Below, one piece after another: positions 31,264-62,905 of a stretch of DNA of 64,000 nucleotides; the first letter of the stretch is position 1; every line of letters begins with the position of its first letter. The translations under genes were made by a program, and so were the position numbers. Source of the DNA: Hyphococcus sp. (lineage in GTDB: Bacteria; Pseudomonadota; Alphaproteobacteria; Caulobacterales; Parvularculaceae); the NCBI GenBank assembly GCA_028284345.1, contig JANQRY010000010.1, positions 496,001 to 560,000 of the forward strand, read 5' to 3'. The notes beneath the pieces were generated by a model that saw nothing but the letters and a program-made list of their open reading frames with translations, was not told the DNA's origin and did not search any database.

Positions 31264-31270
31264 GGCGCGT

Positions 31271-33152: not shown

Positions 33153-33204
33153 ATTGCGCTTGCGCGGCAGCCAACATTTGCAATTATTGACAATCCCTCG
33201 CGCC

Positions 33205-33400: not shown

Positions 33401-33570
33401 GCCGGGAAGAGTTCTCTTGGGGCGGGAAAGGGCCGACGAAAGCGTCAGGCGCCTCTCCTTAGTAGCGACATCAATTGGTCCGTCCGCCCGCGCGGCGTTC
33501 GCCGCGGGACCTTGTTCGTCGTTACGAAAGGCGTTCCGCATCCGGGCGGCGGAACGCGAGGGGAACAGCC

Positions 33571-40497: not shown

Positions 40498-41489
40498 TGA
40501 CGGACGACCTTCTTCACGGCGGCGCGCTCGATTTGATGCGGCGTCGCTTCCCGGATGCGAAAGGGCCATGGCTTGATCTATCAACCGGCGTCAGCCCTTT
40601 TGCTTATCCGGACGTGGCTGTAAGCGACGCAGCGCTGCGTAACTTGCCGACACGCGCGATGATGCATGATTGTCGGTCCGCCATGGCCGCGGCTATAGGG
40701 GCGCCGGATGAGAGCCTCCTTCTTGCGCCGGGCAGCGAGCTGTTGATCCGTCTGTTGCCAGACATGATCACTCCAAGGTCTGTCGCCATCCTGTCGCCGA
40801 GTTACGGCGATCATGCGCGGGTCTGGCGCGCGGCGGGCGCCGACGTGATCGAGACGCCCTCGCCCCTTGAACACGCTGAAAACGTCGACGCCATCGTGCT
40901 GTGCAATCCGAACAATCCCGACGGCAGCGTTTTTGCGCGACGCGATCTCGAAAGCGTTCGCGCGCAAATGGCCGCGCGCGGCGGCTGGCTGATTGTCGAT
41001 GAAGCCTATGCCGACCTAAATCCTGTGGTGAGCCTGGCGCCATTGGGCGGCGAGAACGGTCTCATCGTCTTTCGATCTTTCGGAAAATTCTACGGCCTTG
41101 CAGGCGTGCGGCTTGGCGCGCTGATCGCGCCGGGCCCTATCCGGAACTTGATGACTGATCGCCTCGGCGTCTGGCCGGTATCCGGCGCAGCACTGGAAAT
41201 CGGCGCGCGCGTTTACGCCGATAAGAAATGGGCGGAGGATACACGCGTGCGACTCGCCGCAGCCCGTGCGCGAGTTGATCGCATACTCGCGAAAGGAGGC
41301 GTCAACATTTGCGGCGGCACGGACCTTTTTCGGTTCGTCGAGGCGCAGGACGCTTATGCGTTATGGGAGCGGCTGGCGCGCAGCGGCGTCTATGTACGCC
41401 GCTTCGACTGGTCGCCGCGCCATCTGCGCATTGGCCTGCCGCCGGACGGACAAGCAGAAGAGCGTCTGCGTAAGGCGCTCACCCTTTAA
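40497..41489 (+). CDS. cobD: L-threonine-O-3-phosphate decarboxylase (cobalamin aminotransferase-like)
   Basis: A fold-type I PLP enzyme of 330 residues that makes aminopropanol phosphate for the nucleotide loop. It shows DLSTGVSPFAYP at the N-terminus, VLCNPNNPDGSVFARRDL, the PLP Asp in WLIVDEAYADLNP, the Schiff-base Lys in VFRSFGKFYGLAGVRLG, and the final HLRIGLPPD. A GTG at 40494 is in frame just upstream; the ATG at 40497 overlaps the cbiB stop. Its 3' end overlaps that of the convergent cobU by 11 bp. Called CobC in Pseudomonas denitrificans. Confidence 0.92.
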   Translation: MTDDLLHGGALDLMRRRFPDAKGPWLDLSTGVSPFAYPDVAVSDAALRNLPTRAMMHDCRSAMAAAIGAPDESLLLAPGSELLIRLLPDMITPRSVAILSPSYGDHARVWRAAGADVIETPSPLEHAENVDAIVLCNPNNPDGSVFARRDLESVRAQMAARGGWLIVDEAYADLNPVVSLAPLGGENGLIVFRSFGKFYGLAGVRLGALIAPGPIRNLMTDRLGVWPVSGAALEIGARVYADKKWAEDTRVRLAAARARVDRILAKGGVNICGGTDLFRFVEAQDAYALWERLARSGVYVRRFDWSPRHLRIGLPPDGQAEERLRKALTL

Positions 41490-47022: not shown

Positions 47023-47703
47023 TCATACGTCCGCCCATGCGCGCAACAGATTGTGATAGACGCCTGCAAGGTCTACCAGAGAGGCATGGCCAGGCATGTC
47101 GGCGGCGAGGTTCTGAATCGCCTTGTCCATCTCGAATAACATAATGCGCTTCGTCTCGTCGCGCACCATGCTTTGGATCCAGAAGAACGAAGCCAGTCGC
47201 TCGCCGCGTGTAACCGGATTAACGCGATGTACGCTGGTTGACGGATAAAGCACCATGTCGCCTGCGGGAAATTTGACTTCACGAGGCGTAAGGCCTTCCT
47301 CAATCCGCAATTCGCCCCCGTCGTAATCTTCCGGCGCGCTCAGAAACAGCGTCGCCGACAAATCGGTGCGCACACGGTGGACCGTTCCGGCCACCGGCCG
47401 GATAGCACCGTCAATGTGACGCCCATAAGACTCTCCGACCGAGTACCTGTTGAACTGCGGCGGAAGAATCTTCAGGGGCAATGCAGCCGACGTAAAAAGC
47501 GCATTGCGATCCAGCGCCAGCAAGATGAGTTCTCCGAGCTTCCGAGCGACCGGATCGCTGTCGGGGAGCTGCTGGTTGCGCTTGACCTGTTGCGATAGAT
47601 ATCCCGCGGATCCGCGGCCGTCCTCCCAAGCTGCTTTCAGCAGCATCTCGCGAGCCTGCTGCAGCGGATCTTGCGTGAGAACTTCGGGAACGTGAATCAG
47701 CAT
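47023..47703 (-). CDS. PiuC-type Fe(II)/2-oxoglutarate-dependent hydroxylase
   Basis: A 226-residue PKHD-type hydroxylase. Iron ligands are the HxD in YGRHIDGAIRP and the later His in YPSTSVHRVNPVTRGERL, with Arg for oxoglutarate. It also keeps FNRYSVGESYG and EDYDGGELRIEEG. Such genes commonly accompany TonB-dependent catecholate siderophore receptors (the Fiu/PiuA-PiuC pair) and are iron-regulated. Here the start lies only 16 bp after the receptor's stop, so both are one operon. Exact substrate is unknown. Confidence 0.9.
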   Translation of the reverse strand: MLIHVPEVLTQDPLQQAREMLLKAAWEDGRGSAGYLSQQVKRNQQLPDSDPVARKLGELILLALDRNALFTSAALPLKILPPQFNRYSVGESYGRHIDGAIRPVAGTVHRVRTDLSATLFLSAPEDYDGGELRIEEGLTPREVKFPAGDMVLYPSTSVHRVNPVTRGERLASFFWIQSMVRDETKRIMLFEMDKAIQNLAADMPGHASLVDLAGVYHNLLRAWADV

Positions 47704-47719
47704 GATGAAGTTTATAGCA

Positions 47720-49915
47720 TCAGTATTCTAGGTTGATTGCAAACATCGCGGTCGCGCCGGGCCCGGGCACGATGTGCCAGGGATGAATGCCGGCGTAGTA
47801 GAATTTGTCGGTTATATTGGTGAGATTCACCTTGAAACCGAGACGTTCGTTAATCCGATAACCGCCCATGAGATCGAAAGTCCAGTATGCTGGAACCATC
47901 TTTGCCGCAGTTGCGTTCCGGGCGCCGACATACCGCGCGCCTCCGCCAATCTGAAATCGGTCGTTGAGTTGATAGGCATTCCAGAACGTGAACGCATTTC
48001 GCGCCACATTCTGTAGCGGCGAACCTACTGCCGGGCCGCCTACGACTGTCTCGGTGACCTCTCCGTCCAGATACGTATAGCCGGACGACACCTGCCACTT
48101 CGGCGTAAGGTAGCCGACTGCGCTGACGGAAAGGCCATCCACCTGTTGGGTTCCGCCAAGCGTATTGAAGCCTGGATTGTCGGGATCGGGCACGCGCGCA
48201 TTGACCTTCGAAATGCGAAACAAAGCCACATTCAGCGCAAGAGCGTCATCAAGCAGGCTGAACTTGCCGCCGATTTCGTAGCTGCGGTTCTCTTCCGGTT
48301 CCAAGGCAGCGTTTCCAAGACCCAACCCCCGCCCGCTGGTTACGAAAGACAGTCCCTCCGCCGAGGGATTGAACGAGGTTCCAAAGCCGAAATAGAAGCT
48401 GGCGGCAGGATACGGCTTGAAGACGGCCGCCGCGCGGTAGCTAAACGCTTCATCGACTTGCTCGATCTCCTCGCTGCCGGTCATGACGTTGGGCGAGAGA
48501 AATGGCGTGGGATTGCCGACGGGCTCGAAGCGCTCAGCGCTGTAGTCGACCTTGAACCGATCCCAGCGGACGCCGCCGATGATCTGCAGCCAGTCGGCAA
48601 TTTCGAGCGTGTCGATCGCATAAACCCCCAGCGTATCGCCCGTCGTATCCACGACAAGAAGCGTTTCAATACTGGTTGCGGAAAAATCATCGCTGACGCC
48701 GGGATTGAGAAGGTCAACGCCGGGCACGCCGACGCCGAATCCGAACGACGGCGCGCTACGCTCGTGCGACGCCTCAATGCCGACGACCAAAACGTGGCCA
48801 ACGCCGCCCATATCGAATTTTGCTGTGAGATCAGCCTGCACGGCTAGCATGGACTCTTCGCTTTCGCCACGGAATACAAACCGATCAACGGTGACGTCTT
48901 CAAGCGGCGTCGTCGCCGGGATCGCCGGATCGATCAGTGGTTCGGTGATGCGTGTATCGCGGTCGTAATGAGCATAACGCGCCGTGACGCGCCCGGTCAT
49001 CGCGCTGTTGAAATCGCTTTCGACGCGGGCTGTCAAAATGTCGACGGACGTCTTGATGAAATCGCTGGCGAACCCGTAAAAATTTTCACGGGGAATATCG
49101 ACGGTGTTGTTGCCGAACCAGGGATGGCCGTAATCAGGCGTATCATTGTTTGTCTGGTGGAGATAGCTGAGGGAAAGGCGCGTCGCCGCGCCGAGGTCCA
49201 TTGCGAGGCTGGGCGCAATACCGAAACGCCGATATTCGGCCCCGTCCCTTCCCGCCACTTCGGACTGATGACCCATGGCGTTCAGACGAAAGGACGCGCC
49301 GCTTCCGAGCGCTGGCGCCGGCAGAGAAAGGTCGGTCGTGGCGCGGCGGGTGAGATCGGTCCCGAAATTCAGGTTGACCGCCGCAAACTTCTCCTGAAAC
49401 GGCGTTTTACTGACCTGATTGATGACGCCGCCGGTCGAGCCGCGTCCGAAAATCATGGATGAGGGCCCTTCCAGCACTTCAACCGCTTCCAGATTGAATG
49501 GGTCACGAAAATAGCTGCCATAGTCGCGCATGCCGTCGAGGAACATGTCGTTGCGCGACGAGAATCCGCGGATGGAGGGGTTGTTGCCTTGCCAGCTGAA
49601 CTCGCCTGCGCCGAGTGTAATGCCCGGCACATTTCGGAACGCTTCGTCCAGTGAAGTGACAGCCTGATCCTCAAGCAATGCTCGCGGAAGCGTGGTGATC
49701 GATTGCGGCGTATCTTGCAGGGGCGACGGCAATTTCTTTAGCGACAAATCTTCTTCTAGATAGTCAGAGCGACGCTTGCCGTAGACAAAAATTGAATCTG
49801 TCTGCTCAGAAGACTCATCTCGCGGTTGCGCCGCCACGGACTGCCCGGTCATTCCAAGCGCCGTCGTTGACAGGAGCGCCGTCAAAAACTTTGTGGGGCG
49901 GGGTTTAGCTAACAT
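47720..49915 (-). CDS. TonB-dependent siderophore receptor (Fiu/PiuA-like)
   Basis: A 731-residue outer-membrane receptor. After a signal peptide come a TonB-box region (DSIFVYGKRR), the plug with PQSITTLPRALLEDQAV, SIRGFSSRNDMFLDGMRDYGS (in part: RGFSSRNDMFLDGMRD) and EVLEGPSSMIFGRGSTGGVIN, then a beta-barrel ending in ATAMFAINLEY with aromatic end. The plug motif and operon partner PiuC favour catecholate-type ferric siderophores such as monomeric or dihydroxybenzoyl compounds. Iron regulation is expected; I did not find a confident Fur box. Confidence 0.92.
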   Translation of the reverse strand: MLAKPRPTKFLTALLSTTALGMTGQSVAAQPRDESSEQTDSIFVYGKRRSDYLEEDLSLKKLPSPLQDTPQSITTLPRALLEDQAVTSLDEAFRNVPGITLGAGEFSWQGNNPSIRGFSSRNDMFLDGMRDYGSYFRDPFNLEAVEVLEGPSSMIFGRGSTGGVINQVSKTPFQEKFAAVNLNFGTDLTRRATTDLSLPAPALGSGASFRLNAMGHQSEVAGRDGAEYRRFGIAPSLAMDLGAATRLSLSYLHQTNNDTPDYGHPWFGNNTVDIPRENFYGFASDFIKTSVDILTARVESDFNSAMTGRVTARYAHYDRDTRITEPLIDPAIPATTPLEDVTVDRFVFRGESEESMLAVQADLTAKFDMGGVGHVLVVGIEASHERSAPSFGFGVGVPGVDLLNPGVSDDFSATSIETLLVVDTTGDTLGVYAIDTLEIADWLQIIGGVRWDRFKVDYSAERFEPVGNPTPFLSPNVMTGSEEIEQVDEAFSYRAAAVFKPYPAASFYFGFGTSFNPSAEGLSFVTSGRGLGLGNAALEPEENRSYEIGGKFSLLDDALALNVALFRISKVNARVPDPDNPGFNTLGGTQQVDGLSVSAVGYLTPKWQVSSGYTYLDGEVTETVVGGPAVGSPLQNVARNAFTFWNAYQLNDRFQIGGGARYVGARNATAAKMVPAYWTFDLMGGYRINERLGFKVNLTNITDKFYYAGIHPWHIVPGPGATAMFAINLEY

Positions 49916-50067: not shown

Positions 50068-50841
50068 TCACGTTCCGCGAAACTTTGGTTTTGCGCCCTC
50101 GCGAAATGCGTTCGAGGCTTCGGTCGCATCCTCGGTTTTGCGGAGAATCTCAAACATCGTCTGTTCCAATCTCAATCCTACGGCGCGGTCCATATCTCGC
50201 GATCTGATCGCCAGTTCCTTGGTTGCGCGCACAGCGAGGGGAGCGTTGCTGCAGATCAATCGAGCGACGCCAAACGCGGCCTCCATCAGATCTTCAGGCG
50301 GTACAATTCGATTAATCAGCCCCCACCGCTCTGCCCGCTCCGCACCCCACGCCTCGCCGGTAAGCAGCAACTCCATAGCAAGCGCATAGGGTATCTGCTC
50401 AATCAAGCGCTGGGTTCCGCCGTTCGCAGCGAATACCCCGCGCTTCACTTCAGCGAGTCCGAACGAGGCCGAAGGAACCGCAATCCGAATGTCGCACGAA
50501 AGCAGCAAAGTCATGCCGCCGCCAATGCAGGCGCCATTCACGGCCGCGATGACCGGTTTCCAGAGTTCGATACCGCGATTGAGCAGTTGCCCCTGTTGCG
50601 TTTGCCATAGATCTGCAACCGGCCGCTCGCCGGTAAGGAAGGTCTTGATGTCGGCGCCGGCGCAAAACGCCCGTTCTCCGGCGCCCGTCACGATCGCGGC
50701 GTTGATCTTTGGATCGTCCCGGATGTCGCACCAGACCCTCGACAGATCGCGATAGGCCTGATCGTCGAGCGCGTTCATCGCCTCAGGCCGATTAATCGTC
50801 ACCACCGCGATGTCGTCAACGACGTCAAAATCGATAGCCAT
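50068..50841 (-). CDS. Enoyl-CoA hydratase/isomerase family protein
   Basis: A crotonase-fold enzyme of 257 residues. The oxyanion-hole segments are AFCAGADIKTF and AAVNGACIGGGMTLLLSCDIRIA (in part: NGACIGGGMTLLL); the catalytic Glu positions of hydratases lie in FGLAEVKRGVFAANGGTQRL. It is the last gene of the large minus-strand cluster, 74 bp after the first propeller gene. It fits hydration or isomerisation of a CoA ester produced with the CoA-transferase of the same cluster. Confidence 0.9.
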   Translation of the reverse strand: MAIDFDVVDDIAVVTINRPEAMNALDDQAYRDLSRVWCDIRDDPKINAAIVTGAGERAFCAGADIKTFLTGERPVADLWQTQQGQLLNRGIELWKPVIAAVNGACIGGGMTLLLSCDIRIAVPSASFGLAEVKRGVFAANGGTQRLIEQIPYALAMELLLTGEAWGAERAERWGLINRIVPPEDLMEAAFGVARLICSNAPLAVRATKELAIRSRDMDRAVGLRLEQTMFEILRKTEDATEASNAFREGAKPKFRGT

Positions 50842-50915
50842 AGTTGTCTTTCAGATCACTTTAACGGCTCGATTCGCCGCGAACGCCATAACGGCGGCGA
50901 CCTCCTTGTCGGCGC

Positions 50916-52718
50916 TCATTCCCAGAGTTGCGGGAATTTCTCGATATCGGGATAGAGGACGCCGACCGCGGACGTCGCCGCCGACCTAGCGGCGTACCAG
51001 ATCGCTCCCTGCTGCGAGATATTCATTTTGGGAATATCGGAAAGCTGCGGCGTCGGATAGTACTGGAACTCGTGCGATTGCGGATCGTAGCTGACCAGCG
51101 CCCCTCCCATGGCGCCGTCGCTGATCCAAATTGTTCCGTCCGGCGCGCCCTGGACGTCATAAGGACTGGAAAAGCGATACGGCAGCCGAATTTCAGTTAT
51201 TTCTTCCGTGTCGGGATCGATTCTGCCAAGCTTGCCGGACGAGAAGACGCCGTACCATAACGTATTGTCTCGATCCACGCCCAGACGCCGGATGGCGCAA
51301 CGTTTATCGAGCGCGTGATATTCCGTGAAAGATTTCGATTTGGGAGAAAACTTGGCGACCTGGCAGGCGTAGTGCTGAGTGACCCAGATATTATCGTCCT
51401 TGTCGACGGCCATGCCGTATGACCGGCCCCAGGTCGAAGGATAGCGCCACACGCCGTCTATTTTGTTTTTCTTCGCATTCCATTTCAGGATTGAGTTCTC
51501 GCCGATATTGCTGAACCAGATATTTTGCCGCGAATCGACGACGGGCGTGTGAGCCCACCACGGTCCCTCAATCTCCCCGGCGGGATCGGATGGGTAGACG
51601 TGAAGGCTGTCGGTGATCTGATCCAGCTTTCCGATGTATCCGGCGTCGCGTTCGGCCCACCACACGTTGTTCTTGGCGTCGACGGCGATGCCATGAGGGT
51701 GAGCGCCCGGTTTTCCGAGCATATAGTCGGTAAAGGTTCCGGTTCGAGGATCCAATCGTCCGACGCGCGAGGGATAACTGTTGTCGGTATACCAGACATT
51801 ACCGTCCAGATCGACGTGCGGATCCTGCGCCTGGCGCCGTTTGTTGGTCGCATCCAGTTTTGGATCTAAAGGCAAATAATATTCGACATACATGGCGTTG
51901 GCGAGCGCGGCTTCGTCGAGTAAAAGCTCGTCCGCGGGGGTATGCACGCCCCGGGTTGGGCCCGGGCCGAAATTGTCGCTGAGATAATCGTGAAGGGTTG
52001 CCCAGTCGCTGTCGGAAAGTTCCGACTGCTTGATCAGCGGCTCGCCCCGCGGCGTGCCACCCATCAGCTGCTGTATCAGCGTCATGGGTTCGCCCGCGCG
52101 CGGCGTCGGCTTTTTGTGATTGTTCAGGACCTCAACCCAATCCTCGCGGGAACGCGGATTGGCCGGCAGATAGCTTTCACTGGTATGGCAGGCCTTGCAG
52201 GCGTTTTCGATCAGATCACGTCCGCGGCCGGCCGGAAACACCTCGTCATAGGTTCCGTACGAGTCGACATCATGCCAGCCCCATTTCGGATATTCCGCGC
52301 GGATCACGAATTTAGACGGGCCCCCGGCCGTCAGCGTAAAATCAACCTCAACGTCCTGCCCGAACGCGATTTCCATCGTCTTGGCGGCGCGGACGAACCC
52401 GTCCTTTTCGACGGTGATTTCGTAACGGCCGGGCAGTAAACCCGCCGCCCTGAAACGTCCCTCATGCGTGAACACCATATACATGATGCGCTTGTTGGTA
52501 TTGAAGGCGCGCACTTCGGCCGCTTCGACCGGAACGCTGGAGGTTACGGCGCCGGAGAGCGTCGCAGGCGTCCGTGTCTGCTCCCCGTCGGATGGGTTTT
52601 CCTGAGCCGTCGGCGTTGTTTGAGATTGCGTGACTGGCGCCGCGACCGCCGCCGCCGAAGCCGCAGCGGCGCCAACCGCCGTTGCAAGGATCGCCCGCAC
52701 GATTTTCTTTTTTAACAT
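50916..52718 (-). CDS. Exported mono-haem protein with regulatory-like and Vgb-like propeller domains (A)
   Basis: A 600-residue exported protein. After a signal peptide (to about residue 27) there is an Ig-like carboxypeptidase regulatory domain (residues 52-130; TLSGAVTS, GLLPGRYEITVEKDGF), a c-type haem site CKACH at 174-178, then a six-bladed virginiamycin-B-lyase-like propeller with repeated VDLDGNVWYTDN, AVDAKNNVWWAE and DKDDNIWVTQ blades. GGAGG supports the start. It lies 17 bp from a second protein of the same architecture. A periplasmic, electron-transferring binding or dehydrogenase-like role is inferred; no such activity is established. Confidence 0.82.
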   Translation of the reverse strand: MLKKKIVRAILATAVGAAAASAAAVAAPVTQSQTTPTAQENPSDGEQTRTPATLSGAVTSSVPVEAAEVRAFNTNKRIMYMVFTHEGRFRAAGLLPGRYEITVEKDGFVRAAKTMEIAFGQDVEVDFTLTAGGPSKFVIRAEYPKWGWHDVDSYGTYDEVFPAGRGRDLIENACKACHTSESYLPANPRSREDWVEVLNNHKKPTPRAGEPMTLIQQLMGGTPRGEPLIKQSELSDSDWATLHDYLSDNFGPGPTRGVHTPADELLLDEAALANAMYVEYYLPLDPKLDATNKRRQAQDPHVDLDGNVWYTDNSYPSRVGRLDPRTGTFTDYMLGKPGAHPHGIAVDAKNNVWWAERDAGYIGKLDQITDSLHVYPSDPAGEIEGPWWAHTPVVDSRQNIWFSNIGENSILKWNAKKNKIDGVWRYPSTWGRSYGMAVDKDDNIWVTQHYACQVAKFSPKSKSFTEYHALDKRCAIRRLGVDRDNTLWYGVFSSGKLGRIDPDTEEITEIRLPYRFSSPYDVQGAPDGTIWISDGAMGGALVSYDPQSHEFQYYPTPQLSDIPKMNISQQGAIWYAARSAATSAVGVLYPDIEKFPQLWE

Positions 52719-52735
52719 CCCGACCTCCGATAGAT

Positions 52736-54940
52736 TTATTTCGCGAGCGGATCCGGCCGAAGCTGGAAACGCATGACAAAAGGCTTGGAGTCCTCGCCGG
52801 TCTCCGAATGCCACAGCGCAAGCGAAGCCTGATTGGTCCAGATTCCTCGTCCCTTCCAACCAGCTTCCGGGTCGTCAATTCGGCCATCCATGCCGCGCGC
52901 CAGAAACCCAAGCGGGTAAGGAACCCGAAAGACGAGAAAGTCCTCGCTTTCCGGAGGCAGCACCAGAAGCGAATCCGAATTCGAGCCCGTAGCGAATTGC
53001 GTATTGCGCCCCAGTCCGAGGACGTCGAAGTTGTCCGACCAATTGAAATACAAGCGGTCCGCGCTGCGTTCGGTGTTCCCGATCGCCGGTCCCGGCGGCG
53101 GATAGAGCGTCCATCCTTCTCTGCAGCCTTGACCGGTTGGGTTAACGGATTGACACTTCCGGCGGTCGAAGCTTGCAAGGGCGCCGCTGTGCAACGTTAG
53201 CCATGCGACGCCGTTTGTATCGACATCGAGCCCCTTTGGCGCATATCCAAGCGCCGCGCCTGTCACGTCATTGCCAAACGGCGGTTCCCAGACCTCTGAG
53301 CGGCAGGACAATGGCGGCTCGTTTCCCCGTTCGAAGCGCACCAATTGTCCCGGGAGTCCGGGGGCGGCGTACCAGACCGAGCCGTCGAGCGGGCTCACGC
53401 CGATTCCGTATGACCGTGACCTGGGCCGTTTGCGTATCCCTTCGCGGCCCTTTCCTTGATCATCGACGTTGGAATAGACCGGGCACCAACCTTGTGCGGC
53501 CTGGCTGTCTCCAGTTTGGTCATAAACGCGGGTGTTGAGCCAGCCGACGAGCCCCTGATCGCCGCTGAAGTACAGCGTGTTGTCCGCGTCCCGGGCGAAC
53601 TGCAGGTGATGCGTCGAGAAACATGTGTCTATCGTCTCCCAGCCGTTCGACTTTGGATCATACATCGTTACTTGCCGCTCGCTCTCATGCAGCGGCGCCG
53701 CCTTCGAGTAGGGCGTTGAACCGTCGTGACAGAAATTTGGATTGTCGTGCATTCGCCTGACGCGCGACGTCAGCCAAACGCGACCTTTTTCATCAAACAT
53801 GGGGTTGTGAGGGATTGTTTTGCCTGTCCAAACCTCGCTTGATCCCCACATCGGCGACTCAACTTTAGCGTGATCCTTGTCCATGCCGACGAGCATCGCG
53901 TCGGTCAGTTGCTGCTCCGGTATCAACGCCGGCACTTTCAGGCTGGATGCGCTGTTCGTACGAGGGTCGAGGACTAGCAAGGAGCCGGTTCCCTGTCCTG
54001 CGCCGTATACCTTGCCGTTTGCGTTTACCCTCGGATTTCGCTTGTCGGTGGAAATAACGTCGTGAATCCAGTCATCCGGACCAGCGCCCCATCCCCACTG
54101 CGTGATAACGACATTCCTTTCGATTCCTTTGGGACGCGGCGGCGCGGGCGGGGCGGCGCCGGCCTCAATCCGCGCCGTCCACTTCGCGAACATTTCGATT
54201 CCCACCTGTCTGGGAAGCATCGAGAATATAATCGTCATGATCATTCCGTGGGGACCGGCGCGCACCCGATGATCCCACGCAGCTTTCTCGGTTGAAAAAT
54301 CCCCCATCGCTGGATTCAATTCCCGCGTTGCCTTGTTTCCAAGCTGGTGACACCCGGAGCAGACGGTAATTTGATGGAAAAATTCTGCTTGCGTGCCGGC
54401 GACGTCGGAAAGGCCGGCGCCGCTATGCTCCATTTCGGGCAAGCGTTTTACGCCAGGCTCGGGGAACGCATCCGCGGGCGGCGGCTCCAGGAGAGACATC
54501 CAATAGTTGGCCGGATAGATTTGCGCCGCAGTTTGCTCGTCAGGCGCAGGCTGAACTGTAAAATTGAGCGCCTCTCCCGGTTCGCCGTCAGCTTTTGCGG
54601 AATCAAGAAGGCCGTAACCACGGACCCAAACCTTGTACTTGCCCGCCGGAAGTTCCGGCAGAACAAAACGCCCCTCATCGTCGGTGACAACGATTTTTCT
54701 CAGCGCGACGTCCGGTTTGTCCGCCGATTCAGCGATAACCCAGACGCCGCCCTCGGAGCCGGCGGGACTGCGGACTACGCCTTCAATAAAATCCGCATCC
54801 TCGGGATGATCCGCAGTTTCGCTTTGGCCGCAACCGGACATCGCGGTTGCAGCCAAAGCGAGAGAAATCGCCAGATTTACGCGGGCCACGACCTTCGCAA
54901 ATTTAAATTGGCGGTTCAGGCTCATCTCAAGTTTCCTCAT
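52736..54940 (-). CDS. Exported mono-haem lipoprotein with regulatory-like and Vgb-like propeller domains (B)
   Basis: A 734-residue lipoprotein (lipobox AMSGC, Cys37) with the same order of parts as protein A: Ig-like domain (residues 50-130; IEGVVRSPAG, PELPAGKYKVWVRGYG), a c-type haem site CSGCH at 194-198, a Met-rich stretch (GMIMTIIFSML) that could give the axial ligand, and a Vgb-like propeller (RVNANGKVYGAG, DEKGRVWLTSRV). It is longer than A, mainly in the propeller. An ATG at 54925 is a possible start. Partner of A in the same operon; both appear to act in the periplasm. Confidence 0.8.
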   Translation of the reverse strand: MRKLEMSLNRQFKFAKVVARVNLAISLALAATAMSGCGQSETADHPEDADFIEGVVRSPAGSEGGVWVIAESADKPDVALRKIVVTDDEGRFVLPELPAGKYKVWVRGYGLLDSAKADGEPGEALNFTVQPAPDEQTAAQIYPANYWMSLLEPPPADAFPEPGVKRLPEMEHSGAGLSDVAGTQAEFFHQITVCSGCHQLGNKATRELNPAMGDFSTEKAAWDHRVRAGPHGMIMTIIFSMLPRQVGIEMFAKWTARIEAGAAPPAPPRPKGIERNVVITQWGWGAGPDDWIHDVISTDKRNPRVNANGKVYGAGQGTGSLLVLDPRTNSASSLKVPALIPEQQLTDAMLVGMDKDHAKVESPMWGSSEVWTGKTIPHNPMFDEKGRVWLTSRVRRMHDNPNFCHDGSTPYSKAAPLHESERQVTMYDPKSNGWETIDTCFSTHHLQFARDADNTLYFSGDQGLVGWLNTRVYDQTGDSQAAQGWCPVYSNVDDQGKGREGIRKRPRSRSYGIGVSPLDGSVWYAAPGLPGQLVRFERGNEPPLSCRSEVWEPPFGNDVTGAALGYAPKGLDVDTNGVAWLTLHSGALASFDRRKCQSVNPTGQGCREGWTLYPPPGPAIGNTERSADRLYFNWSDNFDVLGLGRNTQFATGSNSDSLLVLPPESEDFLVFRVPYPLGFLARGMDGRIDDPEAGWKGRGIWTNQASLALWHSETGEDSKPFVMRFQLRPDPLAK

Positions 54941-54988
54941 CGTCTTTTTGACAAATCGTCTGAAAATTCACCGCAATGCGGTCGCCAT

Positions 54989-57313
54989 TCAGAAGTCCGC
55001 CTTCAAGATGACGCCGTATGCTCTGGGTTCTGCAGGATGCGTAAGCGTGCCTTGCGGCCCCGGGTTAAAGCGCACGGAGCTCCAGTACTTTTCGCCAGTA
55101 ATGTTCCTCATCCAAAAGACGATCGAAGTCTTCGCGCCGATAGCTAAACTCTCCGGAAGATCATAGCGCACCGAACCGTTGGCGACGGTGAACGAAGGCT
55201 GGCGGAATATATTTGGCGCGTCCCAGTAGTATCCGTGATTATACGTTACATCGCCGGATATACTCAGCGCCGCGTCTCCCAGGGGAATGTCGTAGGTAAA
55301 CCCAAAGAGGCCGACGAACTTCGACGCCAGAATCAGTTGATTGCCCGTCGCGTTGGAGAGGCATTCGTCGGTATTGCCGCCGTTGCCCGGACGAATCCCT
55401 GTCGCGGGTGTTGAGCAACCCGGAACAAAGAGCGTCGGCACGCCGCTTACGTCGCGAGTTTCCAGAAATCCGCTCGGCGCAGTCGCCACCGCATTTGGAA
55501 AGCGCCGATATGTCGGGTCGAGAATCTGCGCGGACGCCCTCAGGGAAAGACCGTCGACGACATCATTTGCGACCGCCTCAATGTCAAACCCGCGCGAGCG
55601 AGCCTTGGCGGCGTTTGCGACGGTTACAAAGACTGAGCCGGTCATCGGATCCAGCGTTGCAGCGCTGACCTGGACGTTCTTGAGATCATTCCAAAAGGCC
55701 GCAACGTTGAAAAGGAACCTGTCGTTGTCCCAGGACATTTTAAGCCCCGCCTCATAGTTGATGTTGGTCTCGGGTTGGATGAGATTCGGAGGATCGAAAA
55801 AGGCGGAGGCAAAGAACCCGGCCTTGTACCCTGTGCTTACTGACGCATAGGCCATATGATCAGCAAACTTCTGATCGACCGCCACGCGCCAGGTTACTTT
55901 CTCGAAGCTGGTGCTGACGTCGTGCTCGGGGCCTTGGAACACCGCCAGGACTTCCGGATAGTTCGGGTCCTCCCTGTACGAGGTGAAGTCGATGCTCGGA
56001 TTCGACTTCACGCTGTCATGCGTATAGCGAACACCCGCGGTAATGCTGGTCCGGCTGGGAAATTCATACGTTGCCTGTGCATAGCCGGCGATCGATTCCA
56101 CGCTGTCGACCGTATCCAGCTGAAGTCCGTTTCCGGCTAGAGATGTTGAAAAGACGGCTGAAATGACGTCGATGGAGAAGTCGAGATAGTATACGCCCGC
56201 CTGCCATTGCAACGGCGAGTCGGGAAGCGACTGCAACTGCAATTCCTGGCTGAACGACTCCATGTCCGGCATCGAATTCACTGCGAATGAGTCGATATCA
56301 ACGCCGCCGTAGCGCGAGTTTTCTTTCGCAGACTGATACGCGGTGATGCTGATCAAATTCGCAAACGGAAGCTCGTGCTCAAGTCGAGCGTCGACGCCAT
56401 AGGCTTGCGATTCGCGAAACGGCGCGAGAAACGCCCGTCCGTCATAAAAGTCAGTTGGATTGGGGTATATGATGGGCGGCGTTGTATCCAACGTGGCGCC
56501 GACAGTCGCGCCCGGGAAACCGCCCCCGGTTGAAGACGCCGTTGCGCTCCACGCATCCACATAATGACCGCCAATCAGGAGCGACGTACGATCGGTAAGA
56601 TCGAAATTTATCTTGCCGCGACCGAGGAAATACCGGTCGCGATAGATGTCTTCGCCGGGCCTGAGAAGATTGTCGCCCCAGCCCTCCGCTTGATTTTTGT
56701 ATGTCACGGCGATTGAGGTCTGCACCGACTCGCCGATCGGAGTCGTCAGATAGGCGTTGGCGTCAAACGTATCGAAATTGCCGTACCCAATAGACATATT
56801 GCCGTCGAACTCATCCGCGGGCTTACGCGTAACGAGCTGAATTGCTCCAGCGGTCGAGTTTCGACCGAACAGCGTGCCTTGCGGTCCCTTCAAAACCTCC
56901 ACGCGCTCTATGTCATTGAGCCGCAACAGGGCGGAAAGAACCATCGGCTGATAAATACCATCTGTGTAGAGACCGACGCTGGACTCCAGTCCAACGATAT
57001 TGCCGACGCCGCGTATAAAAGTCTGGGCGCCGCGTGGCGGAATTTCCTGCGTAATGTTGACGCCGGGAACCGCTGTTAAGAATTGCTCCAGCGTTTGAAT
57101 ATTTGATTTTTCCAGAGCGGCAGCGCTAACCACTGCTACGCTCAGAGGAACTTCCTGCAGATTTTCCTCACGCCGTTGCGCCGTCACAATGATCGTTTCG
57201 CGGCCGCTTGCGCTCGCGTCTTCACTGGCTGAGACGTCGTCCTGAGCCAGTACAGGAAGAGCGAAAAGTGCAGCGGAAGTTGATAGTAAAGTACCTTTAG
57301 TTAAGCGCCTCAT
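54989..57313 (-). CDS. TonB-dependent receptor
   Basis: A 774-residue receptor. The signal peptide ends near ALPVLAQ, and the plug includes ETIIVTAQRREENLQEVPLSVAVV (in part: TIIVTAQRREENLQ), TFIRGVGNIVGLESSVGLYTDGIY (in part: FIRGVGNIVGLES) and EVLKGPQGTLFGRNSTAGAIQL. The barrel ends in AYGVILKADF with a C-terminal aromatic residue. A very strong Shine-Dalgarno (GGAGGGAGG) precedes the start. This type is common in sphingomonad-like bacteria with catabolic clusters. Here it likely takes up the compound degraded by the neighbouring enzymes. Confidence 0.92.
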   Translation of the reverse strand: MRRLTKGTLLSTSAALFALPVLAQDDVSASEDASASGRETIIVTAQRREENLQEVPLSVAVVSAAALEKSNIQTLEQFLTAVPGVNITQEIPPRGAQTFIRGVGNIVGLESSVGLYTDGIYQPMVLSALLRLNDIERVEVLKGPQGTLFGRNSTAGAIQLVTRKPADEFDGNMSIGYGNFDTFDANAYLTTPIGESVQTSIAVTYKNQAEGWGDNLLRPGEDIYRDRYFLGRGKINFDLTDRTSLLIGGHYVDAWSATASSTGGGFPGATVGATLDTTPPIIYPNPTDFYDGRAFLAPFRESQAYGVDARLEHELPFANLISITAYQSAKENSRYGGVDIDSFAVNSMPDMESFSQELQLQSLPDSPLQWQAGVYYLDFSIDVISAVFSTSLAGNGLQLDTVDSVESIAGYAQATYEFPSRTSITAGVRYTHDSVKSNPSIDFTSYREDPNYPEVLAVFQGPEHDVSTSFEKVTWRVAVDQKFADHMAYASVSTGYKAGFFASAFFDPPNLIQPETNINYEAGLKMSWDNDRFLFNVAAFWNDLKNVQVSAATLDPMTGSVFVTVANAAKARSRGFDIEAVANDVVDGLSLRASAQILDPTYRRFPNAVATAPSGFLETRDVSGVPTLFVPGCSTPATGIRPGNGGNTDECLSNATGNQLILASKFVGLFGFTYDIPLGDAALSISGDVTYNHGYYWDAPNIFRQPSFTVANGSVRYDLPESLAIGAKTSIVFWMRNITGEKYWSSVRFNPGPQGTLTHPAEPRAYGVILKADF

Positions 57314-57330
57314 GATAGTCCTCCCTCCGT

Positions 57331-58545
57331 TTATATTATTTTGGATTTTTTTAAGTGCGCGATTTCATGCTCGGGCACGCCGAGCATGTTCTTCAAGATT
57401 TCATCATTGTCGCATCCCGACACCCATTTTCCCGACCAGCGCACACGGCCGGGAGTCCGTGAAAATACGGGCGCAACGCCTTGCGCAATAAATGATCCGA
57501 TCAATTCATGATCATGCTCGACCAGCGCGTTCCTAGCCTCGAACTGACGGTCTTTAACGATTTCAGCAACGGAATAGACGGCGCCGCACGCAATGTCGTT
57601 GGCGTTTAGAATATCCGACAGGTCTTGTACGTTTTTCGTACGCGCCCAGGCGGCAATCAGCTCTTCGAGTTCACCTTGATGCCTCGCTCTTTCCCGATGG
57701 CTTGCAAACCGCGGGTCTCCGACAAGGTCCGGTCGCTCCATCGCGACAAGCAGGCGCTCAAACATCCGCTGCTCAGTGGCGGCTATAACGAACCAGTGGT
57801 CGTCCTGCGTCCGGAAAACGTTCGAGGGCACCACGCCCGGGATGCAAGTCCCCGCCGGGCGGCGCACCTTGCCTAAAGCGTCGTACTCTGCGATCGCGCT
57901 TTCCATTATGGCGAGACAAGATTCGGTCAACGCGACATCGATTACTTGGCCCAGTCCGCTTTTCTCACGCTCGACCATGGCGGCGAGGACGCCTTGCGCC
58001 GCGAACAATCCTGCGATGGTGTCTCCAAGCGACAGCCCCAGGCGAAGGGGCGGCCCTCCGGGCTCGCCGTTGATGAAACGCAACCCGCCAAGCGCCTCGG
58101 CGACCGCCGCGAAGCACGGCCTCATTCGATTTGGGCCCGTCTGACCAAATCCGGAAATGCGCGCCACGATTAATCCCGGATTGACTTCCGCGAGAACGTC
58201 CGGACCGAGATTCCATTTCTCTAACGTTCCTGGACGGAAGTTTTCGATGACGACATCGCTAGTCGCGCACAGTGACCGAAAGACGTCCTGTCCCGCCTCT
58301 TGACTGAGGTCTAGCGTGATGAGCTTCTTGTTGCGAGATTGAACAGACCACCACAAGCTGCGGCCTGCGATTGATCCTTGCCCCCATGTGCGCAGCGGAT
58401 CAGGTTTGTCAGGTCTCTCAACCTTAATGACCTCCGCACCCAGATCGGCCAGCAGTCGCGACGCAAAAGAGGCGGCGACAATAGAGCCGAGCTCTATAAC
58501 GCGAAGCCCTTCTAAGGGACCGTTTGTCTTAGATCGTTCATTCAT
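57331..58545 (-). CDS. Family III CoA-transferase (CaiB/BaiF)
   Basis: A 404-residue formyl-CoA transferase-like enzyme: LEGLRVIELGSIVAASFASRLLADLGAEVIKVERPD (in part: LRVIELGSIVAASFASRLLAD), SRNKKLITLDLSQEAG, DVVIENFRPGTLEKW with the catalytic-type Asp downstream, and ISGFGQTGPNR. It moves CoA between carboxylic acids. The start at 58545 was chosen because the longer frame would overlap ALDH; it overlaps the ALDH end by 8 bp. Probably activates an acid formed by the ALDH; the family also includes racemases. Confidence 0.93.
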   Translation of the reverse strand: MNERSKTNGPLEGLRVIELGSIVAASFASRLLADLGAEVIKVERPDKPDPLRTWGQGSIAGRSLWWSVQSRNKKLITLDLSQEAGQDVFRSLCATSDVVIENFRPGTLEKWNLGPDVLAEVNPGLIVARISGFGQTGPNRMRPCFAAVAEALGGLRFINGEPGGPPLRLGLSLGDTIAGLFAAQGVLAAMVEREKSGLGQVIDVALTESCLAIMESAIAEYDALGKVRRPAGTCIPGVVPSNVFRTQDDHWFVIAATEQRMFERLLVAMERPDLVGDPRFASHRERARHQGELEELIAAWARTKNVQDLSDILNANDIACGAVYSVAEIVKDRQFEARNALVEHDHELIGSFIAQGVAPVFSRTPGRVRWSGKWVSGCDNDEILKNMLGVPEHEIAHLKKSKII

Positions 58546-60106
58546 CCAGGTGGTCTCCGCGAGACGGGTTCGACTCGCGCGTCGTTGTGGATTCCGAAGA
58601 TTCACTTGAGGAAGAAGAGATCCTGTACGGATCTCTTTTGCCGCCCGAGACATCCATCCAGACAGATTTTGTTTCGAGATAGTCGTTTATGGCGTCCAAA
58701 CCATTCTCACGGCCGACGCCGCTGGTCTTCATGCCGCCGAAGGGAACGGCGGGGGACGCCACCCGATAACAATTGACCCAAACCGTGCCTGCTTTAATCC
58801 GATCAACCATCCGATGCGCCCGGTTCAGGTTCGAGGTCCACAATCCTGCGGCCAGGCCGTATGGGGTGTCGTTGGCCATTTCGATCGCATCGTCCTCGCG
58901 ATCAAAAGGCATGACGGCGACAACCGGGCCGAAAACCTCTTCGCGCACAATCTGCGCGTGCTGCTGAACGTTGGTGATGACCGTTGGTTCAAAGAAATAG
59001 CCCGAGCGCGGTGAAACTTTGCCGCCACAGAGTATCTTCGCGCCCGATCGAGCGCTTGCGCTGACAAGCTCTTCAATTTTGCGCAGCTGTGGCTCGGTGG
59101 AGATCGGACCAATATCCGTAAGCGGATCAGTCGGATCGCCGAGGCGCGCCTCACGCGCGCGCCGCACCAAGGCGTCTACGAACGCGTCGTGAATTGACTG
59201 CTCCACCAGGACCCGCGATCCCGCGTGACACATCTGCCCCGACGCCGCGAAGACGCCCGCCACGACGCCATTGACGGCGGCTTCGAGATCGGCGTCGGCG
59301 AATACGATCTGCGGCGATTTTCCCCCGAGTTCCAGCGTCACGCGTCCGACATGGTCGGAAGCCGCTTTGGAAACCGAGATTCCGGTCTGCGTCGATCCGG
59401 TGAACGCGATGCGGGAAACACGCGGATGCGCGGCGAGCGCTGCGCCCAACTCGCGCGATGATCCCGAAACGACATTGAACACGCCCGCCGGGAATCCGGC
59501 TTTGTGAACGTATTGGGCGAAAGCCAGAACCGACGCCGGGGTGAATTCAGACGGCTTGACGACCATCGTGCATCCAGCCGCCAGAGCCGGCGCCAGCTTG
59601 AATGCGAGCAAAAGCAAAGGAGCGTTCCAGGGAAGAATTGCTCCGACCACGCCGACCGGCTCGCGACGCGTATAAACGAAATACTCTGCTTGCGGTTCGG
59701 AGACGACGCGCCCTTCGATCTTGTCAGCGAGGCCGGCGAAATAGCGCAGCCACTTCGCGACCAGGGCGACTTGCGCCTCAGCATCGCGACGGACTTTCCC
59801 GTTGTCGCTCGTCTCAATAGCGGCAAGATGCGCAAGGTTTTGCTCCACGAGATCGGCAAGCCGGTGCATCAACTTTCCGCGGCCGGCGCCGCCCAGCGTC
59901 AGCCAATCCCCTTCGAGCGCCCTCAACGCCGCATCGACTGCAACGTCGAGATCTTCGACGCTGGCATCCGCGACCGTCGCCCAAGGCTCTTCCGTATATG
60001 GGTTTACGCTTTCGAATCTCGCGTTCTGGCTTGGCGGCTGGAATGTTCCATCGACATAGAGGTCGTACCGCTTGAGCGAGCCCGCTTCGACAACGCCGCG
60101 CGCCAT
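58538..60106 (-). CDS. NAD(P)-dependent aldehyde dehydrogenase
   Basis: A 522-residue class 3/1-like aldehyde dehydrogenase. The Rossmann and catalytic features are VGAILPWNAPLLLLAFKLAPAL (in part: GAILPWNAPLLLL), FTGSTQTGISVSK, the Glu in VTLELGGKSPQIVF, and the catalytic Cys in VFAASGQMCHAGSRVLV. A Ser/Glu-rich tail extends past the usual end. The ATG at 60106 overlaps the ThDP-enzyme stop (TGATG); a GTG one codon earlier is also possible. It should oxidise an aldehyde released by the ThDP enzyme. Confidence 0.93.
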   Translation of the reverse strand: MARGVVEAGSLKRYDLYVDGTFQPPSQNARFESVNPYTEEPWATVADASVEDLDVAVDAALRALEGDWLTLGGAGRGKLMHRLADLVEQNLAHLAAIETSDNGKVRRDAEAQVALVAKWLRYFAGLADKIEGRVVSEPQAEYFVYTRREPVGVVGAILPWNAPLLLLAFKLAPALAAGCTMVVKPSEFTPASVLAFAQYVHKAGFPAGVFNVVSGSSRELGAALAAHPRVSRIAFTGSTQTGISVSKAASDHVGRVTLELGGKSPQIVFADADLEAAVNGVVAGVFAASGQMCHAGSRVLVEQSIHDAFVDALVRRAREARLGDPTDPLTDIGPISTEPQLRKIEELVSASARSGAKILCGGKVSPRSGYFFEPTVITNVQQHAQIVREEVFGPVVAVMPFDREDDAIEMANDTPYGLAAGLWTSNLNRAHRMVDRIKAGTVWVNCYRVASPAVPFGGMKTSGVGRENGLDAINDYLETKSVWMDVSGGKRDPYRISSSSSESSESTTTRESNPSRGDHLDE

Positions 60107-61839
60107 CACTGATCTCGGGTCCCTTGACCCGTTGTGAGAGCCCCGGAGTTATCGGACGGTATGTCGCGGCCGTCGAGAACGAACAACGGGCCGCTGGCGT
60201 TATTGTTGAGAAACGCGCCTTCCCTCGAAAGAGGCACGTCTATGACATAGGCCGTTTGCGACTTCTTCGCCCGGAGGAGCGCCGGTCCAAGGTCTGCGAC
60301 GCTCTCGATTCTCTCGCCGTCCGCGCCATAGGACTTTGCGATTTGGACATAGTCCGGATTTGAAAACTCTGTCCAAGCGGCTTCTCCCCACTTGCCCTTC
60401 ATCATCATGTCGTTCGCGCCGTATCGACCGTCATTAAAAACGACAACGACCACCGGAGCATTGTGCTCCGCGGCGACGCGAAGTTCATTCAGGTGATATT
60501 GAGCGGCCCCGTCGCCGGTCGCCACAAAGACGGTTGCGTCCCTTTCGGCGAGTTTAGCCCCAATTCCCATCGGGATTGCGGAGCCTAACATCCCTTCGCC
60601 AAAGGACATTAATAGTCTTTTGGGTTCATCCAGATAGACGCCTTGGAGAACCCACCATGAATGATTGCCGATGTCTGATACAATGATGTCGTGGCTCGAT
60701 ATCGCCTTGCGCAGCTCGGCCATGACGCGCCACGGGTTCATGGGAAACTGATCGTCCTGTCCGGCCTCTTCGACCGCGGCAAGCCATTCGGTCTTTCGCG
60801 CCTGGTTGCGTGACCGGAATGCTTCCCATTTGCTAGGAAGGTCTTCGTTCGGCAAAATCTGCGCAGCCAGGGCCGACACGAACATCTTCACATCGGACAG
60901 GATCGAAATCTCCGGGCGGTAGAATTCTCCGAGCCTGGCGACATCGACATCGACCTGGATCGCCGGCGGCAGTTGAACGGTGAAGCCTTGAGAGATGCCC
61001 CAGTCGGCCAATCGCGAACCGAGAACGAGCACCAGATCAGCCTCCGCCAGGGCTTCATTGGCGCATTTCCAACCGGCCATCCCGGCCGAGCCCAGCGAAA
61101 GCGGATGGCTGTCTGGAATGACGCCCTGCGCCGTCGTGGTGGTTATGAAGGGCAGGCCCATGCGCTCAACGAGTTCACGGATTTCCGGCCCCGCGCCGCT
61201 GCGAACCGCTCCCCCGCCGATGAGCAGCAAGGGGCGCTTTGCGCTGCGAAGCATCTGAGCGGCTGCTCTTACATCTTCAGAGGACGGCGCCGGAAGCGAC
61301 GGCTCCTTCGGTTTTCCTTGCGGAATAACTGCTGCGCCGCGATTGAACGTAAGATCAAAGGGGATGTCGACGTAAGTCGCGCCGGCCGGCGCGCCCTCGG
61401 CCGTCTGGAATGCACGGTGCAAGAGTTCCGGAATCTTGTCGAGGCGTTCAGCGCGCGCGTTGAATCTCGTAACCGCGCCAAGCATTGACGATGTGACCTG
61501 TTGCAACCCGTCGCGCGCCGTCAGCTTGCTGTCGGAGTTAAAGCCAATGTTTACGGCGGGGATTCTTGACGAGGTGGCTTCCGCCAGTGCGCCGGGGATC
61601 AGGTAGGAGCCGACCGTATGCCATAGTCCGACGGCGGCGGGCGCGTTGCGGAGATAATTATACGCCACCATCATATAGGCGCCGCCCAGCTCGGTGGCCG
61701 GGTTAACCGTCTGAATGTCGCGCTCCGATGTAGCGCGCGCGATCGCATGGGTGCTGTGGCCAATGAAGCCAATCGCGAGTTCAACGCCATACCTTTTGAG
61801 CGTTTCCGCGATTGCTTCCGCGCCGGACATCATTGTCAT
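60106..61839 (-). CDS. Thiamine diphosphate-dependent enzyme (acetolactate synthase/decarboxylase family)
   Basis: A 577-residue POX-type enzyme. The catalytic Glu is E50 in VNPATELGGAYMMVAYNYL, and the cofactor site reads ATGDGAAQYHLNELRVAAEH, ending VVFNDGRYG. A central domain follows the usual FAD/NAD-like fold. The ligase-versus-decarboxylase activity cannot be decided from sequence: 2-oxoacid decarboxylase, acetolactate synthase-like or an acyl-CoA-using acetyltransferase are possible. GGAGG supports the start at 61839. First gene of the catabolic operon. Confidence 0.88.
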   Translation of the reverse strand: MTMMSGAEAIAETLKRYGVELAIGFIGHSTHAIARATSERDIQTVNPATELGGAYMMVAYNYLRNAPAAVGLWHTVGSYLIPGALAEATSSRIPAVNIGFNSDSKLTARDGLQQVTSSMLGAVTRFNARAERLDKIPELLHRAFQTAEGAPAGATYVDIPFDLTFNRGAAVIPQGKPKEPSLPAPSSEDVRAAAQMLRSAKRPLLLIGGGAVRSGAGPEIRELVERMGLPFITTTTAQGVIPDSHPLSLGSAGMAGWKCANEALAEADLVLVLGSRLADWGISQGFTVQLPPAIQVDVDVARLGEFYRPEISILSDVKMFVSALAAQILPNEDLPSKWEAFRSRNQARKTEWLAAVEEAGQDDQFPMNPWRVMAELRKAISSHDIIVSDIGNHSWWVLQGVYLDEPKRLLMSFGEGMLGSAIPMGIGAKLAERDATVFVATGDGAAQYHLNELRVAAEHNAPVVVVVFNDGRYGANDMMMKGKWGEAAWTEFSNPDYVQIAKSYGADGERIESVADLGPALLRAKKSQTAYVIDVPLSREGAFLNNNASGPLFVLDGRDIPSDNSGALTTGQGTRDQ

Positions 61840-61938: not shown

Positions 61939-61969
61939 ATTTGACAAATGCCTAGATCAAATATTTATA
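61939..61969 (+). promoter_or_regulatory. LysR promoter with overlapping dyad
   Basis: TTGACA at 61941-61946 and TTTATA at 61964-61969 with a 17-bp spacing look like a sigma-70-type promoter, expected to start transcription only a few bases before the LysR ATG. A dyad, ATTTGA (12 bases) TCAAAT, at 61939-61962 overlaps it and resembles a LysR box, fitting autoregulation and control of the divergent operon. Confidence 0.45.
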
Positions 61970-61981: not shown

Positions 61982-62905
61982 ATGAATTTAGATCTTAAAC
62001 TCCTGAACACCTTTTTGCAGATTGCGGACGCGGGAAGTTTTAGCGCTGCAGCGCGCCTGCACGGCCTCTCCCAGCCAACGCTTAGCCGACAGATCCAGCA
62101 GCTTGAGGATAAACTCGGGCATCGAATTTTTGATCGCGACACCCGAAATTTGAGTCTCACGCCGGTTGGCAACGAACTCTATGCGCTCGCCACGCGGCTG
62201 CTGGGCGATTTCAATCGCTCCTTCGAGCAGCTGGATGAGTTTGCGACCGGCCTCAAAGGACGGGTCGTGATCATCGCGATACCGACGATGGCGGCGACCC
62301 TTGTTCCGGCGGCAATTGCTACGTTTTCAAAAACGCGGCCGAACGTGATTGTAGAGCTTCGCGAAGACTTCACGAAACAAGTCGCCGACGTTGTTGCGAA
62401 TGGCGAAGCCGAACTGGGTCTTTCCATCACGCCGTCGCTCAACAAGGATCTCAGATTTACGCCGTTGATGAAGGACCGGTTTTTCGCCGCCGCGGCGGAT
62501 GGGGTATTTTCAGCCGGAGACGAAATCTCATGGTCCGATTTAGCGGAACAGCCCTTCATTGCGTTTGATCGACAAAGCAGCATCCGCATGATGGCCGACA
62601 GGGCTTTTTCTGAAGCAAACGCGGTTGTGCAAATTCAGCATGAGTGTCGGGAACTTGCGACAGTAGGCGGATTTTTAGCGGCGGGTTTGGGCGTTACAGC
62701 GCTTCCCGAATTGACCCTTCCTCATCTAGCGAGGCAAGTCGTGTGTAGAGAATTAATCGAGCCACGCATTTATCGAACACTGGGGCTTGTCACATCATTA
62801 AGGAGGGTGTTATCGCCTGCCGCGTTGGCGTTCGCCGAGTGTTTGAAAAAGGAGGCGCACAGCTCGCCCTGGCGTTATCAAACGAACTTACCGGATACAA
62901 ATTAA
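61982..62905 (+). CDS. LysR-family transcriptional regulator
   Basis: A 307-residue regulator. The N-terminal helix-turn-helix spans LKLLNTFLQIADAGSFSAAARLHGLSQPTLSRQI (in part: GSFSAAARLHGLSQPTLSRQ), followed by the linker and the effector domain with VIIAIPTMAATLVPAA and a late GGFLAAGLGVTALPEL. It is divergent from the ThDP/ALDH/CoA-transferase operon and separated by 142 bp, so control of that operon is likely. The effector is unknown, presumably the pathway substrate or an intermediate. Confidence 0.92.
   Translation: MNLDLKLLNTFLQIADAGSFSAAARLHGLSQPTLSRQIQQLEDKLGHRIFDRDTRNLSLTPVGNELYALATRLLGDFNRSFEQLDEFATGLKGRVVIIAIPTMAATLVPAAIATFSKTRPNVIVELREDFTKQVADVVANGEAELGLSITPSLNKDLRFTPLMKDRFFAAAADGVFSAGDEISWSDLAEQPFIAFDRQSSIRMMADRAFSEANAVVQIQHECRELATVGGFLAAGLGVTALPELTLPHLARQVVCRELIEPRIYRTLGLVTSLRRVLSPAALAFAECLKKEAHSSPWRYQTNLPDTN

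Follow-up and report, generated by a model that had tools for sequence, protein, structure and literature searches.

A gene cluster of Hyphococcus sp. (Alphaproteobacteria) probably encodes the catabolism of an alicyclic (saturated-ring) compound through ring cleavage of the cyclohexane-1,2-dione hydrolase (CDH) type, with cyclohexane-1,2-dione as the default guess for the ring to be opened. To our knowledge, CDH is the only characterised thiamine diphosphate (ThDP)-dependent enzyme opening an unsubstituted alicyclic ring, and it has been studied from one strain. The cluster occupies positions 50068 to 61839 of the 64,000-nucleotide stretch analysed here (the window), which comprises bases 496001-560000 of a contig ending at base 562488; the host genome of 3.4 Mb is assembled in ten contigs. 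The open reading frames reveal seven tightly packed minus-strand genes, all of them intact, encoding in the order of transcription a ThDP enzyme, an aldehyde dehydrogenase (ALDH), a CaiB-like protein, a TonB-dependent receptor, two presumed haem proteins, which we call PROP2 and PROP1, and a crotonase-fold protein, with intergenic gaps of -1, -8, 17, 48, 17, and 74 bp. A preliminary description made from the DNA sequence had counted eight genes in this run; its short gaps and overlaps and its divergence from a LysR gene were correctly seen, and Pfam agrees with the families named for the crotonase, the first propeller protein, the TonB receptor, CaiB, ALDH, and the three-domain ThDP enzyme. 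We regard the operon as a new, divergent CDH-type variant with an unusual haem-protein module.

Judged by its sequence, the ThDP enzyme (60106..61839, minus strand) is of the CDH type: CDH is by far its nearest relative, the two fall into one clade, and the special residues of CDH are kept. Its annotation draws on the Pfam domains TPP_enzyme_N, TPP_enzyme_M, and TPP_enzyme_C, the closest PDB sequence, and the start context. A phmmer search of PDB sequences gave 528.6 bits (E 2.4e-157) for CDH of Aromatoleum diolicum 22Lin (PDB 2pgn), compared with 198.9 bits for the next family, acetolactate synthase. The window protein and 22Lin CDH are identical at 260 of 569 aligned positions, and identity to the CDH-type enzymes of 22Lin and Rubrivivax sp. 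A210 amounts to 45-47% (47% for Rubrivivax). In a tree of seven sequences, the window protein and the two betaproteobacterial CDH-like proteins form one clade with a support of 1.000, the betaproteobacterial pair being joined at 0.989. The genome of Rubrivivax A210 has its own paper (PMC8218464). The excerpts of the literature on dione hydrolases that we consulted, from PMC12247030, PMC3534367, PMC8541089, and PMC12655727, contained nothing concerning the present cluster.

The alignment places His, His, His, and Asn at positions 28, 31, 76, and 484 of the window, Rubrivivax, and 22Lin enzymes, where four acetolactate-synthase-type proteins of related genomes have Gly, Leu, Ser, and Val; Glu52 and Gln116 are common to all seven aligned ThDP proteins. 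We take His31 and His76 to be important active-site positions of CDH. Two papers report that the joint exchange of His28 and Asn484 makes CDH a carboligase coupling pyruvate to ketones (PMC12247030, PMC8541089).

Three other identities were considered and rejected. Acetolactate synthase reached 199 bits and glyoxylate carboligase at most 125 bits, compared with 529 bits for CDH. A 2-hydroxyacyl-CoA lyase, as the combination of CaiB, ThDP enzyme, and ALDH might suggest by analogy to 2-hydroxyisobutyrate breakdown, scored 161 bits for the best such chain. The 25 best-scoring of 55 NCBIfam matches included none above its cut-off and no IolD model; the top one was an acetolactate synthase model with 270 of 509 bits. 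A three-sequence structure model was of low confidence (pLDDT 51); the top four Foldseek hits with this model were all CDH chains but had TM-scores of only 0.42 and a root-mean-square deviation of 14, and we give them little weight.

Enzymes of this type appear to be rare. We scanned a collection in which each of 84,980 species is represented by a single genome, possibly without the window's own genome, with an alignment of the window and CDH proteins as the query; a pattern occurred in 22 stretches, two of which encode relatives, namely those of 22Lin, the source strain of CDH, and Rubrivivax sp. A210, although CDH relatives can be missed because the scan used only two short peptide patterns. 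At E <= 1e-100, the ThDP protein was found in its own genome alone among 385 alphaproteobacteria, and a search of 300 genomes from the order of Rubrivivax returned a match in Rubrivivax itself only. Among 40 relatives, a set overlapping in part with the 385 genomes and including the host and 23 genomes of the same genus, the best other ThDP match had 179 bits and 27% identity. Plasmid records contained no match to the ThDP protein at E 1e-80 and none to PROP1 at 1e-40.

The ALDH gene (58538..60106, minus strand; Pfam Aldedh, motifs LELGGK and GQMC) overlaps the ThDP gene, and its product shares 56.5% identity with the Rubrivivax ALDH whose gene adjoins the CDH-like gene. By family, CDH, ALDH, and CaiB genes lie within 10 kb of each other in all three CDH-like loci, including the window, and the Rubrivivax CaiB gene is found within 8 kb of the CDH-like gene. 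The association of PROP1 and PROP2 with the ThDP enzyme was observed in no other genome examined, including the 23 congeners. This goes part of the way towards refuting the preliminary description, which had named a neighbourhood confined to close strains as its refutation; only CDH, ALDH, and CaiB recur together, in two betaproteobacterial loci. The proposal of one catabolic pathway in which a TonB receptor takes up the substrate and the ThDP enzyme cleaves a C-C bond, made in the preliminary description, is well supported, and the ThDP chemistry, which had been left open there, can now be named as CDH type; its assumption that aldehyde oxidation follows the ThDP step gains support from the CDH-ALDH gene pair in Rubrivivax.

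In the proposed pathway, the TonB receptor (54989..57313, minus strand; Pfam Plug and TonB_dep_Rec_b-barrel) would import the substrate, and PROP1 and PROP2 could oxidise a diol or hydroxyketone to a cyclic 1,2-dione in the periplasm, passing the electrons on via c-type haems. The ylide of the CDH-like enzyme would add to one carbonyl, the bond joining the two carbonyl carbons would be cut, and an oxo-acid would be released, which would be 6-oxohexanoate if the ring is plain cyclohexane. The ALDH would oxidise the aldehyde end to a dicarboxylate of the adipate type, and the CaiB and crotonase relatives might then act in some manner on this dicarboxylate or on its CoA ester, with the LysR protein presumably controlling the operon. 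Larger ring diones, such as terpenoid or steroid 2,3-diones, may be the substrates instead.

PROP1 (50916..52718, minus strand) and PROP2 (52736..54940, minus strand) are the first and second haem proteins by coordinate. Both have a signal-like N-terminus as judged by eye, a CarboxypepD_reg-like domain, one CxxCH motif, and a C-terminal part, and both are presumably exported, PROP2 possibly as a lipoprotein (by eye). PROP1 carries its CxxCH at residue 175 of a 601-residue frame and matches Pfam CarboxypepD_reg; its Vgb-type propeller scores 98.1 bits with Vgb_lyase against a Pfam cut-off of 50. The NCBIfam model for streptogramin lyase Vgb(A)/Vgb(B) gave 63.4 bits, below the cut-off of 600, and the matches to solved chains of virginiamycin B lyase (Vgb) are single blades in shifted register. 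PROP2, with its CxxCH at residue 194, reaches 23.6 bits with CarboxypepD_reg, short of the Pfam cut-off of 32.3. It showed no Pfam propeller family match and no PDB relative outside the CarboxypepD part, and its putative propeller was therefore recognised by eye, from DxxGxxW repeats; a Reg_prop match (E 0.047) appeared in one of ten aligned family members. Because cytochrome models barely register (Cytochrome_CBB3 at E 0.1 for PROP2, none listed for PROP1), haem binding is predicted from the CxxCH motif. The pyrroloquinoline quinone (PQQ) propeller PF01011 matched neither protein at E 0.001 or E 1, though it matches elsewhere in the host genome. The preliminary description had called the two proteins twin haem-propellers. 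The single CxxCH and the common architecture bear this out, as does the Vgb likeness of PROP1; the sequences are little alike, the best blastp match between them (E 0.002) covering 116 N-terminal columns, and PROP2 lacks a propeller match. A literature search for this haem-propeller architecture returned no paper.

An alignment of ten PROP2 sequences (the window, Microvirga ossetica, and loci L020-L027, leaving out two fragments from genome G099) shows the CxxCH motif, His 293, 378, and 445, and Cys 404, 440, 596, and 606 to be invariant, a pattern that would be compatible with disulphides and with a metal or redox centre. The single-sequence structure prediction of PROP2 was useless (pLDDT 33). 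Homologues of PROP2 occur in eight of 289 alphaproteobacterial genomes, including its own, and in one plasmid record, that of M. ossetica (E cut-off 1e-5). The other 39 relatives gave no match with a query that does find its own genome, and viral contig scans contained relatives of neither PROP1 nor PROP2. PROP1 was found at E <= 1e-40 in its own genome only among the 289. At E <= 1e-35, one other of 398 genomes of the phylum matched, over residues 295-564 only. Matches in 21 of the 39 relatives concern the propeller part (about residues 293-581), with genome G385 also matching weakly at 20-142. Within the genomes searched, full-length PROP1 was seen in its own genome only.

We also inspected the neighbourhoods of PROP2 in 11 other loci (L019-L029), five of them shorter than 14 kb and two of those five gene fragments. 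At E 1e-5, no match to the ThDP enzyme, CaiB, the crotonase, or PROP1 turned up in any of them; an ALDH (35% identity) is present in L020, and L025 and L029 have matches to the TonB receptors. The neighbours were named in part, and those scanned were chosen by eye, so that the following associations serve as a lead and not as a count. PROP2 directly follows a PQQ dehydrogenase gene in L025, lies near a molybdopterin oxidoreductase and an adjacent short-chain dehydrogenase in L026 and near a P450 and an alcohol dehydrogenase in L027, and is found some 5-7 kb from molybdenum hydroxylases in L020 and L024; L023 has a penicillin amidase. In the Microvirga record, PROP2 adjoins a 63-codon gene annotated as a PQQ-dependent sugar dehydrogenase. 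L025, L026, and L027 belong to a single genome (G246), which thus has three PROP2 copies, each near different oxidoreductase genes.

We tentatively assign PROP1 and PROP2 to a periplasmic oxidation module by analogy, because they stand where other CDH loci have GMC dehydrogenases and, in Rubrivivax, also a PQQ dehydrogenase. The link between this module and the CDH operon rests on one genome, and the pairing is not conserved. One could go further and suppose that the two proteins form a new periplasmic cytochrome-linked dehydrogenase, combining a c-type haem with a non-PQQ propeller, which converts alicyclic diols or hydroxyketones into 1,2-diones in two steps and replaces the GMC and PQQ enzymes in a third, divergent CDH-type pathway that might serve a large ring substrate imported by the TonB receptor, such as a terpenoid or steroid 2,3-diol. 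This extended proposal is tentative, and we consider it rather unlikely.

Several observations weigh against the proposed operon function. The residue following Asn484 is Asp in the window, Trp in 22Lin, and His in Rubrivivax, and with identities of only 45-47% the substrate may differ from that of other CDHs. The window ALDH is as distant from the 22Lin ALDH as from that of the unrelated locus L020 (35% each); with 56.5% identity to each other, the window and Rubrivivax enzymes represent one subfamily and the 22Lin enzyme another. CaiB and ALDH are common families. The CaiB protein (57331..58545, minus strand), confirmed as a fold family member by Pfam CoA_transf_3 (398.8 bits), is no closer to the CaiB proteins of the CDH loci (33%, 228 bits; 29%, 129 bits) than to E. 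coli YfdE (220 bits), and its recurrence in all three loci could therefore be due to chance. The protein has Ala (codon GCG, window 58110-58108, two base changes from GAC or GAT) where the Rubrivivax and 22Lin CaiB proteins and all five printed PDB class III chains have Asp, presumably the catalytic Asp169 of formyl-CoA transferase. The crotonase-fold protein (50068..50841, minus strand; Pfam ECH_1) has Thr at the first hydratase Glu position, which is Glu in all five printed PDB chains, and keeps the second; we take the two positions to be the catalytic Glu144 and Glu164 of rat enoyl-CoA hydratase, and the pattern presumably resembles enoyl-CoA isomerases and not hydratases. Tblastn against the DNA around CDH in 22Lin (21.7 kb) and Rubrivivax found no counterpart of the crotonase, PROP1, PROP2, or the TonB receptor; PROP2 was also unmatched in both whole genomes, a result that is weak when taken alone, though the query matches its own genome. 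Finally, the oxidation could be supplied by a PQQ dehydrogenase and by GMC proteins encoded elsewhere in the host genome. The CoA transfer and hydration steps of the preliminary description keep their protein families and are weakened as functions, since the missing active-site residues forbid reading such steps from family names: judging from the alignments, CaiB is not safely a CoA-transferase, nor the crotonase relative a hydratase. With Ala in place of the conserved Asp, a CaiB relative of this kind may serve as a subunit that has no catalytic activity and depends on a partner.

Other explanations of the cluster deserve consideration. The ThDP enzyme might have drifted from CDH to become an open-chain alpha-diketone hydrolase, a carboligase, or an alpha-hydroxyketone lyase that cleaves no ring. 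An identity of 45-47% leaves room for such drift, and the failure to reach any NCBIfam cut-off among the best matches is consistent with it; however, all four tested CDH-specific positions are kept and the pairing with ALDH is as in Rubrivivax, and we consider drift unlikely. Nor does it seem likely that PROP1 and PROP2 are no dehydrogenases at all, with PROP1 acting as a Vgb-like lyase or lactonase that opens a periplasmic ester or lactone and the haem being structural, a sensor, or an electron exit. The Vgb_lyase score of PROP1 speaks in favour of this idea, as does a weak blade alignment (3-6 bits) setting the His of a PHG motif in PROP1 on a His of Vgb chain 2z2n (Ala in 2z2p). The single-blade matches in shifted register and the lack of a Vgb match in PROP2 speak against it, and we know of no haem in Vgb.

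Least probable to us is a patchwork operon, in which CDH and ALDH were acquired together, the CaiB and crotonase relatives are relics or re-purposed, and the haem proteins are unrelated passengers. The loss of conserved active-site residues in two enzymes and a combination of parts seen in no other genome examined would fit such an origin, but seven open frames, their tight spacing, and a G+C content equal to that of the surroundings (58.5% for the cluster, 58.4% for window positions 1-45000) would not. We retain alicyclic-ring catabolism with CDH-type cleavage as the preferred reading.

The LysR-type regulator (61982..62905, plus strand; Pfam HTH_1 and LysR_substrate) diverges from the cluster. 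The region between the LysR and ThDP genes contains four short inverted pairs, one of which, ATTTGA-N12-TCAAAT (61939..61962), is a possible LysR operator by sequence, although its 6-bp arms are short enough to have arisen by chance. On the opposite side, at 47023-49915 on the minus strand, lie a siderophore-type TonB receptor (above the cut-off of TIGR01783, below that of the Fiu model) and a PKHD-type Fe(II) dioxygenase (above the NF003975 cut-off). This iron-type pair adjoins the operon and is probably no part of it, and siderophore uptake was dropped as a theme of the operon. At the window end and just beyond it, near the end of the contig, two genes identified by eye may prolong a catabolic island: a flavin adenine dinucleotide-monooxygenase-like gene at 1876-3510 (minus strand) and another LysR gene at 938-1876 (plus strand), both in the coordinates of locus L048. 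Genes for cobalamin biosynthesis and for uptake of B12 at 30181-41489 were recognised by eye only.

A third, divergent CDH-type sequence, found in an alphaproteobacterium within an operon of its own, makes the substrate range and the evolution of this ring-opening chemistry testable. If the haem proteins indeed oxidise an alcohol, a function would be found for an uncharacterised family present in several alphaproteobacteria. The family members share about 40-50% identity with the window PROP2, in most cases along the entire protein, and have the same CxxCH. PROP1 resembles Vgb in its blade sequences; the solved Vgb chains have about 300 residues, and PROP1 adds the CarboxypepD and CxxCH parts before the propeller.

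Among the CDH loci, that of 22Lin encodes CaiB, electron transfer flavoprotein (ETF) subunits and ETF-QO (by eye), a riboflavin-synthesis gene, CDH, a Gluconate_2-dh3-like gene (22.3 bits, below the cut-off of 23.4), a GMC oxidoreductase, ALDH, a porin, and a second GMC piece at the edge. The GMC genes around CDH (L046, 14-15910) are candidates for diol oxidation in 22Lin. The Rubrivivax locus comprises a gene without a Pfam match, a GMC oxidoreductase, a porin, the CDH-like gene, ALDH, a PQQ alcohol dehydrogenase, a solute-binding/cytochrome protein, and CaiB. Between the two loci, identity amounts to 70% for the GMC proteins and 53% for the genes preceding them. The window shares with 22Lin a ThDP enzyme of the CDH type, in which the special residues are the same, and nearby ALDH and CaiB genes, whereas 22Lin differs in its GMC oxidoreductases with their partner gene, the ETF and ETF-QO genes, the porin, and the other ALDH subfamily. 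Rubrivivax has a CDH-like gene followed directly by an ALDH gene of the same subfamily as in the window, with CaiB nearby; where it has a GMC oxidoreductase with its partner, a PQQ alcohol dehydrogenase, a solute-binding/cytochrome protein, and a porin, the window has PROP1, PROP2, and a TonB receptor.

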